DNA of 64,000 nucleotides from assembly GCF_018304825.1 (NCBI RefSeq), contig NZ_CP072648.1:789501-853500 (forward strand), read 5' to 3'. The translations under genes and the position numbers were made by a program. The DNA comes from Chloracidobacterium validum (GTDB taxonomy: Bacteria; Acidobacteriota; Blastocatellia; Chloracidobacteriales; Chloracidobacteriaceae). The notes beneath the pieces were generated by a model, which saw only the letters and a program-made list of their open reading frames with translations, made no database searches and was not told the DNA's origin. This document shows positions 20,610-26,878 of the stretch, one piece after another (position 1 is the stretch's first letter; each line of letters opens with the position of its first letter).

Positions 20610-21977
20610 TTATTTGATTTCGGGACGACAGACCGCTCCTTCAGGACAGACGACAAATCCGCCAACATAGAACGTCGCGTCTGCGAGTGAGGCGAAACCG
20701 GCGGCTCCATAGGGAAAAAGCTTGTCCCGGTCTTGAAAAAGGGCGACTGAAATTTCATCCGGGCTGTCGCTGGGCGTGATGAGGTGGCTGATTTTGTTGT
20801 CGCGCGCCACGATGCGAATGCGGTTCCACTGGCGCGCCTCGAACCGTAGCGGCAGCGGATCGCTCTGGACGGGTATCCCCAGGACGCCGTCTCGGTAGAG
20901 ATATGTGTCAATCCGGCTGGTGGTTGGGGTCGGCGATTCCAGGATAAACACATAGCCATTGCGCTCGTCGCGGCCACGAACGACCCACGCGGCCCGCTGC
21001 CCCTGGGCAATCCGCAAGTCAAAATTAATCTCACAGCCGCGAAAGCCGACTTCCTTGGGAAGCCCGACGGCAAAGTTCGTCCCGCCGACGCGCAGAAGTT
21101 GCTGCTCAACGGCCCAACCGGGTGGGGCGTCCCATTTGTAGAGATTGGTGAAGTTGTCGGCAAACTCGATGATGGCTTCCAAGCGTGCCCGCAGCAGTGT
21201 TGGTTGCTCTGTCGTAAGCGTCAGGTCGGTTTCAAACGTTCGGTAGCGCTCCGCCTCAATCCGCAGCCGGTGCGTTTCATCCGGCGAGAGTTGCTCGATG
21301 ACCAGCGAGCCGTCGGCCGAGACGTCGCCGCAGTAGACATCATCGGCGTAAACACGGGCGGTTGGTAGGGAATCAATGCGCAAGATGGCCTTGGGCGGTT
21401 CGGCAACTTCAACCTTTGCCGTGGCCGCTTCAAGTTTCAGCGTCGCGTTATAGACTGCGCGCGCGCCCTGTCGAATCTGGATTTTACGTGTTCCTGGCGG
21501 GCTAATCCGCGCTTCCAACCGCTGGCCGTCCAAACGCCACCGGGCTTCATCGAGCAACTGCCCATCCACGAAAACAGCCGGTTTGGGGGTTGGGCGCAGG
21601 CGCAAGTTGGGAATCGAAAGCGTGGCAAAGTTTGGCTTGAGTTCAGCAATGATGGCTTCCGACCGTCCGGCCGTGATTGTGATGTCGCAGGTAAAGTTCT
21701 CGTAATCAGCCGCGCGCACTTCGAGCCGGTAGCGCCCTGGGTTGAGCTTTTTTGTGAACTTCCCGTTGATGAGTTGGCCGCTGGGTTGGCTGTTGACCAA
21801 CACCTCACCGGTCGGCGTATTGCTCGCCACGACCAGCGTACCGGCCGACGGCGGGCGATACGTGGCGGTCTTGATTTTTTTCTCGATGATGACACTGGCT
21901 TCTTTCTGCGCCAGGATACTGGCGCTTGGCGCGCCAATAAACAAGACAATGAGAAACAGTGCGGCGGTTATCCTCAT
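20610..21977 (-). CDS. PEGA-domain exported protein with C-terminal sugar-hydrolase-like fold
   Basis: A 455-residue protein starting at ATG 21977, overlapping the kinase gene stop by four bases (ATGA). It starts MRITAALFLIVLFIGAPSASILA, a signal peptide. Next come PEGA-type beta repeats: PTGEVLVNSQPSGQLINGKF with KLNPGRYRLEVRAADYENFT, and a second at LRIDSLPTARVYADDVYCG with HRLRIEAERYRTFETD. The C-terminal 180 residues (NFTNLYKWDAPPGWAV, WVVRGRDERNGYVF, ARQWNRIRIVARDNKI, GFASLADATFYVGGFVV) resemble the LamG/DUF1080 concanavalin-like fold. It probably acts in the periplasm or on the cell surface; the ligand is unknown. Confidence 0.85.
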   Translation of the reverse strand: MRITAALFLIVLFIGAPSASILAQKEASVIIEKKIKTATYRPPSAGTLVVASNTPTGEVLVNSQPSGQLINGKFTKKLNPGRYRLEVRAADYENFTCDITITAGRSEAIIAELKPNFATLSIPNLRLRPTPKPAVFVDGQLLDEARWRLDGQRLEARISPPGTRKIQIRQGARAVYNATLKLEAATAKVEVAEPPKAILRIDSLPTARVYADDVYCGDVSADGSLVIEQLSPDETHRLRIEAERYRTFETDLTLTTEQPTLLRARLEAIIEFADNFTNLYKWDAPPGWAVEQQLLRVGGTNFAVGLPKEVGFRGCEINFDLRIAQGQRAAWVVRGRDERNGYVFILESPTPTTSRIDTYLYRDGVLGIPVQSDPLPLRFEARQWNRIRIVARDNKISHLITPSDSPDEISVALFQDRDKLFPYGAAGFASLADATFYVGGFVVCPEGAVCRPEIK

Positions 21978-24127
21978 GGCTGGGGCGGGTCGGCTGCAAC
22001 ACGGAAGCCCAGAAAAGCTTGTTTCTTGTCGGGGAGCGTCCATTTGCGACTGGTGGTACGGGCGTCCAACAAAAGTGACGCGAAATGGCCGCCACGGTAA
22101 ACCTTACAGGTCAGGTCACGTTCGGTCGCGCGATAGCCGCTACCCGGATAAACCGTGAAATCAGACGCCGTCCATTCACAGACGTTGCCTCCCATGCCAA
22201 AAACCCCGAAAGCACTTCGGTCGCGGGTGTTGTTTGGTTCAACATTGACCGGCAGCACAAGCATTTGGGGGGTGTTGATCGCCTGGCGCGTGTTGGCCGT
22301 CCCATCGCGCCAGAAGTCGCCCCATGGGAAGAGCCGCTTGTCCGTTCCACGCGCAGCATATTCCCACTCGTCCTCGGTCGGGAGTCGAAACACAACGCCA
22401 TCGGGATTGGATTTGGTCAGCCAGGCGCAGTAGGCTTGCGCATCGCGCCACGAAACCTCGGTCACTGGGAAGTCATCCTGCCCGGCCGGGTAAGTGCCTT
22501 GTTTCCAGCTTGGCGGCAGAGGGTGTCCGGTTGCTTCAGCAAATCGCTTGTATTCGGCGTTCGTGGTTTCGTATTTGGCAATGTAAAAAGCTTTCACCGT
22601 GACAGCGTGAGCCGGTGTTTCATCAATCGGCACGCGCTTGTCACTGGTGAGGTCGTCGGGGCCGGGGTCACGCCCCATGGTAAACGTTCCGGCGGGAACC
22701 AGGACGAAACTCTCCAGGGATTTTGGCGCTGCCGTTTGAGTGGGTGTCGGTGCCACACCCACTGGCACTGGCGTGGGCGTAAGCCAGCGGTTGAGCGCCA
22801 GTGCGCCAAACACAAGGCTTGGCACAACAACGGCAATTGCTGCGTAGAGCCACCAGTTCCGGGACTTGGTGGCTGGTTCGTCAAGCGGTAACCCGCTGCC
22901 ATAGGGGCGCGTGTCACTGCTGGAGGCTGGTCGTTTCAGGGTAGCCGCGAAGGTATCTGGGTCGCTATCGGGCAAGGGTGCCAGGATGCGTCCTGGCGCG
23001 GATGTTTTGGGCGCAAGCTTTGCCGCCGCAAGCAATGCCTGTGAAAATTCCTGCGCGGTGCGGAAGCGGTCGCTGGGGGACTTCTCCAGAGCGCGATGAA
23101 TCACCGCCGCGATTTCTTCCGAAATGTTGGGGTTGAATTGCCGAAGCGGCGGCGGTGGCTCGTTCACATGCTTGAGGGCAACCGTAAGTGGGCTGTCACC
23201 GTCAAAGGGTGGCTGTCCTGCGCACATTTCATACAGCACAACCCCCAGGGAATAGAGGTCAGCGCGTCCGTCAATGGCGCCGCCACGGCACTGTTCGGGC
23301 GACATGTAGCGTGGCGTTCCCATCATGGTGCCTTCCGTGGTCATGTTGACCACGGTCGAGGTTTGAATCTTGGCAATCCCAAAATCCAGCACCTTGACGA
23401 CTTCTTCACCCCCGGCTTCGGGACTCGTGAGAAAGATATTGTCCGGCTTGAGGTCGCGGTGCGTAATGTTTTGCCGGTGCATAAACTCAAGCACGGCAAA
23501 AACCTGTTCGGCGTAACGCACAATCGTTTCAAGTGGCAACCAGCCAACGCGGGCTAGTCGTTCCCGCAGGGTTTCACCCTTGAGAAGTTCCATAATCAGG
23601 TAGCAATCACCTTGCTCGACGCCGGAATCAAGGACGCGCACCGCGTTCGGATGCTGAACTCGCGCCATGGCCTTGGCCTCACGCTTGAAGCGCTCGACGG
23701 CTTCAGCGTTGCTCGATAGGCTGCTTGCCATGATCTTGATGGCAACCGACGTCTCGAGTTCACAGTGCCGAGCTTCATAGACGCGCCCCATGCCCCCTAC
23801 GCCAAGCAGTCGCACGATTTCATACTTGTTCTGAAACCGTTGTCCGATGGCGAGACCCTCGACGGGACGTTGTTTGGGGGGGGAAGTCTCAATGGCGACG
23901 GGCTGGGTGGCCGGGGCTCCGACCCGGATGGTCTCTCCGCCGGGGGCTGGTTTCAGACGCGCGCCGGTGCCAAGGTTCATCGTCTGCTCAACGGTCAAGT
24001 CCTGATCGGTACCGGCCGGAAGCGGGTTTTCCGTTAGTCCGTCCGTCAAAGCAGGCGCTGCCGCTGATGATGCCAGATGGGTGGTTTGGTCCGGCGCGCT
24101 TGGTCTGCCGTCAGATGGGTTAGCCAT
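21974..24127 (-). CDS. Membrane Ser/Thr protein kinase fused to an FGE-sulfatase-like domain
   Basis: A 717-residue protein. After a 100-residue low-complexity tail comes a Hanks-type kinase: LLGVGGMGRVYEA, Lys131 in VAIKIM, ITHRDLKPDN, DFGIAK and GTPRYMSPEQ, all catalytic residues intact. One transmembrane helix (WWLYAAIAVVVPSLVFGALAL) near residue 435 is followed by an extracytoplasmic FGE-sulfatase/SUMF1 fold: SFVLVPAGTFTMGRDPG, FYIAKYETTNAEYKRF, FPVTEVSWRDAQAYC, RLPTEDEWEYAARGT and GNVCEWTAS. The cysteines that true formylglycine-generating enzymes carry in their final GGS-C motif are absent (RGGHFASLLL). The domain is therefore probably a sensor or a different enzyme. Confidence 0.93.
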   Translation of the reverse strand: MANPSDGRPSAPDQTTHLASSAAAPALTDGLTENPLPAGTDQDLTVEQTMNLGTGARLKPAPGGETIRVGAPATQPVAIETSPPKQRPVEGLAIGQRFQNKYEIVRLLGVGGMGRVYEARHCELETSVAIKIMASSLSSNAEAVERFKREAKAMARVQHPNAVRVLDSGVEQGDCYLIMELLKGETLRERLARVGWLPLETIVRYAEQVFAVLEFMHRQNITHRDLKPDNIFLTSPEAGGEEVVKVLDFGIAKIQTSTVVNMTTEGTMMGTPRYMSPEQCRGGAIDGRADLYSLGVVLYEMCAGQPPFDGDSPLTVALKHVNEPPPPLRQFNPNISEEIAAVIHRALEKSPSDRFRTAQEFSQALLAAAKLAPKTSAPGRILAPLPDSDPDTFAATLKRPASSSDTRPYGSGLPLDEPATKSRNWWLYAAIAVVVPSLVFGALALNRWLTPTPVPVGVAPTPTQTAAPKSLESFVLVPAGTFTMGRDPGPDDLTSDKRVPIDETPAHAVTVKAFYIAKYETTNAEYKRFAEATGHPLPPSWKQGTYPAGQDDFPVTEVSWRDAQAYCAWLTKSNPDGVVFRLPTEDEWEYAARGTDKRLFPWGDFWRDGTANTRQAINTPQMLVLPVNVEPNNTRDRSAFGVFGMGGNVCEWTASDFTVYPGSGYRATERDLTCKVYRGGHFASLLLDARTTSRKWTLPDKKQAFLGFRVAADPPQP

Positions 24128-24154
24128 GACGTTTGGTAAACGTTGTCACTTGGG

Positions 24155-24808
24155 TTATTTGGCTTTGAACTTGACTTTGCCGTCAACAATGTCCACGGTG
24201 AAGTTGACCTGGGTCGTATTCCGCTCGGAACACAGCTTCTGTGTGTTCTGAACGATAATTTGGCGGAACTGCTCATAGCTTGTGTTGGTGGCTTCCCCAA
24301 CCGTTCGTTTCGCCTGTTGTAGGCTCTCATAGAGTTTTCGGATACTTGATTCCTGCTGCTCCTGGGACGTGTTACGGCCAATCTGCACGGTCGTGGGTTC
24401 AAATCGTGGCGGCAATGGGTTGCGTTGGAAGTCGCCAAACACAGCGTCCACATCCAGCTCATCAATTGCCTCACCAAATTCCTCGCGCCGCTTTTCTTCA
24501 CTTTCGCGGAAGTTGGCAAGGTATTGGGCGCGCAAGTCGCGTCCTTCTTCACGGTCTTTGAGTGTGCGGTCCCACAGCCGCCGGAACGCCACGAAGCGGG
24601 CGACGATCTGATTGAAACGGAATCGCTGCTGAAACCGCAGTGAGCGATTTTCCTCGATCTTTTTGATGAGCGCTTCGACCCGCCACTTCGTGTCGTAGGG
24701 GGGGCGGTCGCGTCCACCGTTGAAGTACATGTCAAACTCGATTTTGAGCCGACGAATTTCCTCATCGAGTAGGCTGATCTGCTCGTCGAGTGACTTAGGT
24801 TCGCTCAT
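24155..24808 (-). CDS. Soluble helical protein, MXAN_5187 C-terminal-domain-like
   Basis: A 217-residue soluble protein. The N-terminal half is coiled coil (DEQISLLDEEIRRLKIEFDMY). It is followed by FNGGRDRPPYDTKWRVEALI and RSLRFQQRFRFNQIVARF, which I associate with the MXAN_5187 C-terminal domain of myxobacteria and acidobacteria; that family has no known activity. The end (FRQIIVQNTQKL and VNFTVDIVDGKVKFKAK) is also as in that family. The gene lies three bases after the M1 aminopeptidase and 27 bases before the kinase, in one operon. It could bind the kinase or be its substrate; that is a guess from position. Confidence 0.75.
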   Translation of the reverse strand: MSEPKSLDEQISLLDEEIRRLKIEFDMYFNGGRDRPPYDTKWRVEALIKKIEENRSLRFQQRFRFNQIVARFVAFRRLWDRTLKDREEGRDLRAQYLANFRESEEKRREEFGEAIDELDVDAVFGDFQRNPLPPRFEPTTVQIGRNTSQEQQESSIRKLYESLQQAKRTVGEATNTSYEQFRQIIVQNTQKLCSERNTTQVNFTVDIVDGKVKFKAK

Positions 24809-24811
24809 ACC

Positions 24812-26746
24812 CTAATCCTCACGATGCCGGTGATTCGTTTGGGAAAAGACTACACGACTCGGCGCCAGATTGCATCGCGCATGTGAAGGCACAGGTGAAT
24901 GGGTTGCTGAAAGAGGCGCGCTCGTCGTTGCCGGATGCCAGGGGGCTTGGCGGTGGCACTGGCACAGCCGCCAGCCTGCCTGGTCAAGTGACCGCTCGGC
25001 AAGAACCGGCTCACCGCTGATTTCCCGGATGAGCCGATGATTCGGATCAAAGCGGACAGCGCGCGGCGCAGCTTCAAGCGGCAGTGAGAATGCCTGTTCG
25101 GCTTGCGCTTCGATAAACCAGCGCACGGTCTGGCGTTGGCCTTTGGGCAGTTCGATGTCAACCTCAACCGGCGTGCGAACGTAATCGTTTTGAGGATAGG
25201 CGCTCCGTGGGTCTTGTTTCTGTGTTTGGCGTACCGTCACGTGGAGCTGTTTCTGGGCAGGGTGGTAGCGATGCGTGACTTCAAACACCGGATGCCCCAT
25301 GCGATACACCCACTGCTCGAAAAACCAGTCCAGTCCCATGCCGGCGGCGGCTTCCATGGCCCGCCGAAAGTCATGGGTTTCGACATTCTGGAACTGGTGG
25401 CGGGTCAGGTAGTCGGTGATGCCGCGTCGCCAGGCCTCTTCGCCCACGACGAACCGCAGCATGTCGAGCGTCAATGCCCCCCGCGAGTAGGCATAGGCGT
25501 CAAAGAGGGCGTCCGGGTGGGTGAAGCGGCGCGTCACCAGCGGACGCCGCAGCCCTTCCCGCCAAGCTCGGTGGTAAGCCGCCCGGTGCTCCTCCATGAC
25601 CGCCTGAAACCGCTGCTCTCCAAACCGGTGCCGGATGTAGAGGGCTTCAAAATAGGTCGCAAACCCTTCACTCAACCAGAGTTCCGACCAGTCCCGGCAG
25701 GTGACGAGATTGCCAAACCACTGGTGGGCTAGTTCATGCGCCTGGAGCGCTTCGATGCTTTCAAGTGACTCATGACTGCGCGGCAGCGTGGTGTCGGCGA
25801 GGTGGGTCGTGGTGACGTTTTCCATGCCACCCCCGAACTCGGCAACCATCGTTTGGGCGTACTTGGCATAGGGGTAGCGCACGCCGGTTTCCGTTGAAAG
25901 AAACGCCATCATGCGGGGCAGGTTGGCAAAGGCGCGTTTGGCGTCGGCATACCGATCCGGGTACACGTAGGACTGCACCGGAATGTCGTCATAGCTGGAT
26001 TCAATCAAGCGATACCGACCGACCGCGATAGCCAGCAAATAACTGGCATGGGGCTGTTCCATGCGCCAGTGGACGGTGCGCGTGCCATCGCCGTTGTCCG
26101 TGTCGGCGACCAACCGTCCGTTGCTGACGACCGTGTAGGGCGTTTCGACCGTGGCGCGCAGCTCGGAGGTGAATTTGTCGTTGGGGGCATCAAAGCAGGG
26201 AAACCAGTTCCGGTTGTATTCGGTCTCGCCCTGCGACCAGATTTGGCGCGGTCGCTTGGGTAAGTCTGGGGTCGGCTGAATGAAGGTGAGTCCCGTGCCA
26301 AACATCCCGAAAATCCCACCGGTCGGAGGCGTGGCCTGCGCCTCGTACGTGATGACCAGGGTCAGTGTGTCGGCGAGCGTGTAGCTGCGTTCGAGCGTGA
26401 TATGAAGTTTTTCAGCCGACTTGTCGTGCTTGAAAGCGAGTTGCGCGCCCGTTTCGGTCGTGACACCGGCAACGGTCATCGTCTGTCCAGCGTCGAGTGT
26501 CACTTGGCGAAAGTCAGACTGGGTGGGCTTGAGTGTCAGCCGTGCCGTGCCAAAAGTCTTTTGGGCCTGCCAATCAAACCGCAGGTCAAGGGCGATGTGC
26601 TGGGTATCGAAGTTGTTGATCCGCACCCACTGGGCCGGAGGCAGTTCCGGCGCTGCCCGCTGGGCCGGCGTCACTGCCCAATCTCGGCAGAGCACGCCGA
26701 TGAGCAAAATGCCGATGATGCGGAAGACCAAACGCGAGGTAGTCAT
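24812..26746 (-). CDS. M1-family zinc aminopeptidase, exported
   Basis: A 644-residue protein read from ATG 26746, MTTSRLVFRIIGILLIGVL, a signal peptide. The M1 exopeptidase motif GGGMENVTTT and the zinc site HELAHQWFGNLVTCRDW with SELWLSEGFATYFEALY are intact (two His and the distal Glu). So are the N-terminal beta-saddle and the Tyr-containing AYSRGALTLDML. It trims N-terminal residues from peptides outside the cytoplasm. Longer starts (26854) have no signal sequence. The last 50 residues after EPVLAERSLDQ are rich in Ser, Pro and His and look unlike an M1 tail. It is the first gene of a four-gene operon, divergent from the permease. Confidence 0.92.
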   Translation of the reverse strand: MTTSRLVFRIIGILLIGVLCRDWAVTPAQRAAPELPPAQWVRINNFDTQHIALDLRFDWQAQKTFGTARLTLKPTQSDFRQVTLDAGQTMTVAGVTTETGAQLAFKHDKSAEKLHITLERSYTLADTLTLVITYEAQATPPTGGIFGMFGTGLTFIQPTPDLPKRPRQIWSQGETEYNRNWFPCFDAPNDKFTSELRATVETPYTVVSNGRLVADTDNGDGTRTVHWRMEQPHASYLLAIAVGRYRLIESSYDDIPVQSYVYPDRYADAKRAFANLPRMMAFLSTETGVRYPYAKYAQTMVAEFGGGMENVTTTHLADTTLPRSHESLESIEALQAHELAHQWFGNLVTCRDWSELWLSEGFATYFEALYIRHRFGEQRFQAVMEEHRAAYHRAWREGLRRPLVTRRFTHPDALFDAYAYSRGALTLDMLRFVVGEEAWRRGITDYLTRHQFQNVETHDFRRAMEAAAGMGLDWFFEQWVYRMGHPVFEVTHRYHPAQKQLHVTVRQTQKQDPRSAYPQNDYVRTPVEVDIELPKGQRQTVRWFIEAQAEQAFSLPLEAAPRAVRFDPNHRLIREISGEPVLAERSLDQAGWRLCQCHRQAPWHPATTSAPLSATHSPVPSHARCNLAPSRVVFSQTNHRHRED

Positions 26747-26878
26747 CTTGGCGCTTGATTCAGGCTGAGATAAGAGTACCCTGACTCGCACCCCAGCTTT
26801 GTAATCTTTATCCACAACCGGCACAACCGTTGGTTTCAAGCCGCGCTGAACCACACTCGTCGCCCAGGTCTTGACGGT

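Follow-up and report, generated by a model that had tools for sequence, protein, structure and literature searches.

Four closely spaced genes of Chloracidobacterium validum encode an exported aminopeptidase, a small cytoplasmic protein, a transmembrane kinase and an exported lectin-like protein. This arrangement raises the question of whether the four genes form one envelope signalling pathway, as first predicted, or whether a smaller unit within them is conserved. We analyzed a window of 64,000 nucleotides (contig NZ_CP072648.1, positions 789,501 to 853,500), the whole stretch of DNA that contains the locus, from a genome made of two replicons of 2,659,040 and 1,000,103 bp.

Gene order and domain content of the locus

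The four open reading frames were found at the predicted positions on the minus strand, in the order M1 peptidase, MXAN_5187_C protein, kinase-FGE and PEGA protein, with gaps of 3, 27 and -4 bases; the last is an overlap of the PEGA start with the kinase stop (ATGA). The proposed domains (Peptidase_M1, Pkinase, FGE-sulfatase and PEGA) were all recovered using Pfam and NCBIfam. The features, in coordinates of the window, are as follows.

20610..21977, minus strand, exported PEGA/lectin-like protein of 455 aa, signal peptide without lipobox (Pfam, AlphaFold2, sequence)
20643..21164, minus strand, C-terminal jelly roll of this protein, residues 272-445, predicted CBM66/ConA-like lectin fold (Foldseek, 4b1m CBM66)
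21633..21842, minus strand, first of its three PEGA-type beta domains, residues 46-115 (Pfam PEGA 39.5 bits; model)
21974..24127, minus strand, transmembrane Ser/Thr kinase with outer FGE-type domain, 717 aa (Pfam and translation)
21995..22714, minus strand, FGE-type outer domain, residues 472-711, with Ser/Ala at the catalytic cysteine positions (Pfam, alignment)
22790..22860, minus strand, single transmembrane segment WWLYAAIAVVVPSLVFGALAL, ends approximate (read from sequence)
23051..23824, minus strand, kinase domain, residues 102-359, with VAIK, HRDLKPDN and DFG (Pfam; motifs in translation)
24155..24808, minus strand, cytoplasmic protein of 217 aa, N-terminal helical domain and MXAN_5187 C-terminal domain (NF041621 55.9 bits; AlphaFold2 pLDDT 79)
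24812..26746, minus strand, exported M1 aminopeptidase of 644 aa (Pfam Peptidase_M1 150 bits, motifs, linkage)
24812..24990, minus strand, fast-evolving C-terminal tail of the M1 protein (comparison across six genomes)
24846..24875, minus strand, conserved block ATGCAATC-N9-GTCGTGTAG-N-CTT, candidate internal promoter (six genus genomes)
26797..26826, minus strand, candidate M1 promoter TTGTGC-N17-TACAAA, suggested by its being the best-conserved stretch of the upstream region in 6/6 genus members

The kinase domain scored 177.8 bits with Pkinase and carries the catalytic Lys, HRD and DFG motifs of Hanks-type Ser/Thr kinases, and the outer domain belongs to the FGE-sulfatase (SUMF1-like) family (174.8 bits against a Pfam cut-off of 23.3). 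The protein resembles PASTA-type kinases (PknB/Stk1) in having a cytoplasmic Hanks kinase (the kinase half matches at 338 bits), one transmembrane segment and an extracytoplasmic sensor. In contrast to these, it has no PASTA repeats, its ectodomain is of the FGE type and its lectin-like partner is a separate protein; with the PASTA kinase model NF033483 it reached 337.7 of the 450 bits required, in a match extending only to residue 455.

The partner had been described as a PEGA/LamG-like protein. Its PEGA assignment stands (39.5 bits against 20.8, with all 34 aligned members matching at E 0.01), and the AlphaFold2 model (pLDDT 88.4) refines the remainder to three PEGA-like beta domains followed by a C-terminal jelly roll. 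In a Foldseek search, the predicted jelly roll matched CBM66 (4b1m) with a TM-score of 0.79 by target length and an rmsd of 2.7, and also legume-type lectins, a predicted common fold at an identity of only 14%. In family f3 of the class, three proteins (L162:4858-7590, L171:4027-6966 and L178:4341-7655) carry a caspase-like Peptidase_C14 domain joined to PEGA repeats and the same lectin-like C-terminal region, suggesting further use of the PEGA-lectin unit in combination with proteases. The PEGA-lectin protein was also weakly matched by a TIR-domain protein (L180:4487-5764).

Conservation of the kinase-FGE/PEGA pair

Across 48 related genomes, the gene immediately upstream of a full-length PEGA homologue was in nearly all cases an FGE-kinase, encoded on the same strand and usually no more than 100 bases away. 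Among PEGA homologues of similar size, 34 out of 39 follow an FGE open reading frame on the same strand, directly or nearly so; of the remaining ones, a contig end truncates two (with the FGE C-terminus still visible in one of them) and the weakest two have no FGE. The pair is thus present at 34 loci or more across the class, in families f1, f2, f3, f6 and f7, with up to four copies per genome and three or four in G007, G009 and G011. Its carriers include many bacteria of soil and hot springs. Pairwise distances in the kinase and PEGA gene trees were correlated (0.889 for 33 complete pairs). When partners were swapped within genomes, a shuffling confined to the seven genomes with several pairs, the mean correlation fell to 0.613 and the observed value was reached in 1 of 2000 shuffles. 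Since the gene trees match and within-genome swapping of partners destroys the match, the kinase-FGE/PEGA pair duplicates and evolves as a unit. Full-length matches to the PEGA protein were confined to this class among 396 Acidobacteriota genomes, matches elsewhere covering only the PEGA repeats or the C-terminal domain. Contigs of GTDB genomes were also scanned with a narrow motif, at a sensitivity that could miss distant members, and only Blastocatellia-type contigs were returned; one match is filed under Actinomycetota, but its scaffold is named WN_Acidobacteria.

We also analyzed the genes adjoining the pair in these relatives. An Oar-like outer-membrane barrel (CarboxypepD_reg with OMP_b-brl_4) immediately follows PEGA at 7 of 31 loci and, counting the first two genes downstream, is present at 10 of 31. 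Each genome encodes at least 13-45 such barrels (first-look candidates reach 88), roughly 1% of genes, and the binomial chance of this adjacency is about 1e-6 to 1e-8, though the loci are related by descent and not independent. Directly upstream of the kinase, a double-FHA protein of about 260 residues was found at six loci, all in one family. These neighbours suggest an axis running from the outer membrane to the PEGA protein, the FGE domain, the kinase and a phosphothreonine reader. At the Chloracidobacterium locus, neither an FHA gene nor an outer-membrane gene adjoins the pair. Family f7 has a conserved operon comprising the double-FHA protein, the kinase-FGE, the PEGA protein and a 460-aa protein without Pfam match (L166, L168, L169, L172, L175 and L176), the latter being followed at some of the loci by a DUF1517-type protein. 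An FHA-GAF-guanylate cyclase protein (L160:8225-9907) is encoded two genes past another kinase-FGE/PEGA pair.

We favor, with moderate confidence, a two-gene envelope-sensing module as the functional core of the locus, consisting of a receptor kinase and a dedicated lectin-like partner, and the pair probably senses the cell surface. In such a module, the periplasmic FGE-type domain (a C-type-lectin fold) of the inner-membrane Ser/Thr receptor kinase would pair with the exported PEGA/jelly-roll protein. The ligand of the latter would most likely be a glycan, of the envelope or extracellular, or else a component of the outer membrane, and the protein would present its bound state to the FGE domain, which would alter kinase activity. 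An intracellular reader would then recognize the threonine phosphorylation; in some relatives this would be the double-FHA protein encoded beside the pair. That the outer FGE domain and the PEGA protein cooperate had been part of the original prediction, and the conserved, co-duplicating gene pair supports it well. Against a receptor with its partner, the two genes could share regulation without binding of their products, the related loci weaken the neighbour counts, and Chloracidobacterium itself lacks the FHA and barrel neighbours. Moreover, two other FGE-kinases of this genome have no PEGA partner, and FGE sensing is therefore not always PEGA-dependent.

The PEGA/lectin protein could instead be an output, a structural or adhesive protein of the surface or periplasm whose amount or assembly the co-transcribed kinase controls and which does not bind the FGE domain. 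It lacks any enzyme signature, envelope proteins often contain PEGA and CarboxypepD_reg domains, and the barrels beside its relatives would fit such a role. However, strict one-to-one pairing with co-duplication is seen more typically between a receptor and its partner than with a structural protein under regulation, and we consider an output role rather unlikely.

The M1 aminopeptidase and MXAN_5187_C neighbours

The order of all four genes is kept in C. validum and in 5 of the 6 other Chloracidobacterium genomes, and is therefore not specific to this strain. The seventh, G003 (95% complete, 390 contigs), gave no close match to the four genes or to the amino-acid permease that is divergent from M1; with all five genes missing together, the region is lost, or absent from the assembly, as one block. 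Within the genus, the gaps are -26, +3, +10 or +33 bases between M1 and the MXAN-type gene (six genomes), 19-29 between the MXAN-type gene and the kinase, and -4 or +2 between kinase and PEGA. The 3-base gap first taken as a tie between M1 and the MXAN-type gene is present here, but it follows an M1 tail of about 60 residues that diverges quickly between species. Beyond the genus the linkage breaks down, and we rejected the four genes as one system; what is conserved is the pair formed by the last two.

The M1 protein has the intact motifs GGGMEN and HELAH-x18-E, in agreement with the M1 aminopeptidase signatures GxMEN and HExxH-x18-E. It was found beside the module in no other genus examined, and it is the divergent neighbour of the amino-acid permease in six genus members. 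C. thermophilum does not synthesize branched-chain amino acids or lysine and needs an exogenous supply (PMC4376005). Because of this requirement, amino-acid scavenging together with the permease would be the simpler and more probable role for M1, a separate neighbour of the other genes.

The block ATGCAATC-N9-GTCGTGTAG-N-CTT sits inside the fast-evolving M1 tail (the last ~60 codons, with variable ends) and is invariant in 6/6 genus members, except for one base in one genome. Its -10-like end (TAGTCT/TAGGCT) falls 32-39 bases before the MXAN-type start. In a pattern search, it was seen once per genome, at the M1/MXAN-type junction, with one further match at 3 mismatches in G001. Within the block, codons such as CGT and GTA keep their third positions unchanged, for which constraint on the protein alone would not account. 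This conservation suggests an internal promoter, through which the MXAN-type, kinase and PEGA genes would have their own transcription start. A generic sigma-70 promoter scan found sites no more frequently than in shuffled sequences and did not flag the block. A likeness of the block to the region upstream in the sister genus G008 was not clearly above shuffles and is not claimed.

The second gene had been called MXAN_5187-like. This holds for its C-terminal domain (NF041621, MXAN_5187_C_dom, 55.9 bits against a cut-off of 30) but not for membership of the full family (NF041620, 13 bits against 200): the protein shares the C-terminal domain with MXAN_5187, lacks the rest and has a different N-terminal domain. 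Its AlphaFold2 model comprises helices and a strand-helix-helix-hairpin domain, with no PDB fold match below E 0.1; a lone weak sequence match to a solved chain was treated as chance. Adjacency of this gene to the kinase is confined to Chloracidobacterium and the sister genus G008, where the gap is 311; in G007 and G009 the gene lies on a contig other than that of the pair. Elsewhere it is found next to selA in several genomes of other families, and order-level relatives have a PALP enzyme or an NAD-kinase nearby. The MXAN-type and M1 genes joined the pair only recently, in one small branch. The MXAN_5187_C domain also ends a 740-residue response-regulator-like protein, and is therefore a signalling module but no dedicated partner of the present kinase. 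In Chloracidobacterium and the one sister genus, the small protein would probably be co-transcribed with the pair as a cytoplasmic partner.

With these results, the pathway originally proposed can be weighed as a whole: M1 would trim peptides for detection by the FGE domain, with the MXAN_5187-like protein as phosphorylation target of the kinase. The short gaps and an order kept in 6/7 genus members speak for it. However, M1 is linked only in Chloracidobacterium; the MXAN-type gene is linked only there and in one sister genus, with selA, PALP or other genes as its neighbours elsewhere; and the promoter-like block parts M1 from the other three genes. A single four-gene pathway is improbable on this evidence, and the trimming of peptide ligands by M1 is not supported either.

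Several further observations concern the MXAN-type gene. The response-regulator-like protein, of 740 aa, belongs to this genome (L225:2977-5199; G000:C1 about 1091000) and carries its C-terminal MXAN_5187_C domain behind a long proline-rich linker. selA is a recurrent neighbour of the MXAN_5187_C-type gene in several families of the class (L144, L146, L147 and L148), and family f4 has a version of the protein with the N-terminal domain only. A search of the open-access literature found nothing on MXAN_5187.

Relation to known receptors and defence sensors

Kinases with an FGE domain occur in bacteria, and to our knowledge none has a defined ligand or partner. Fusions of bacterial kinases to an FGE domain without catalytic cysteines were already reported in a survey of the OCTIN superfamily (PMC5915273). 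That survey treats single proteins and, in the parts consulted, mentions neither a PEGA-lectin gene as dedicated partner nor a co-duplicating pair; the open-access literature yielded no paper on the kinase-FGE and PEGA-protein pair. More tentatively, the pair may represent an undescribed class of bipartite receptor kinase, in which a cysteine-less FGE ectodomain would be read out via a triple-PEGA lectin protein linking Oar-like barrels to the inner-membrane kinase, multiplied as separate channels across Blastocatellia; we hold this broader proposal as possible rather than probable. The co-duplicating lectin-like protein offers a concrete, testable input protein for an FGE-kinase receptor in a poorly studied phylum, and sets that receptor apart from two accidental-looking operon neighbours. 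The several pairs found per genome suggest parallel channels.

We also considered a conflict or defence sensor, comparable to the FGE/CLec-domain receptors of other bacteria, which have been described together with kinases, caspases and NTPases. FGE has been described elsewhere as a putative invasion sensor (PMC10907252), which counts for such a role, as do the PEGA-lectin units fused to caspase-like domains in some relatives. However, PADLOC returned only generic kinase-domain matches and none for the other three proteins, and the locus is stable within the genus; a defence system was rejected on the PADLOC result, and the reading is very improbable.

As originally predicted, the FGE cysteines are missing from the outer domain: in the alignment, the two active-site cysteines of the formylglycine-generating enzyme are replaced by Ser and Ala, and both are also missing in the related kinase-FGE proteins. 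Despite the good Pfam FGE-sulfatase score, catalytic modification of the PEGA protein by the FGE domain is contradicted by this alignment, in which the pairs have no cysteine at either catalytic position, and we rejected it as barely tenable. The closest solved relative of the FGE domain is ToxD (PDB 7spq, labelled as a Ser/Thr kinase; E 4e-34), with a match that spans the FGE domain only.
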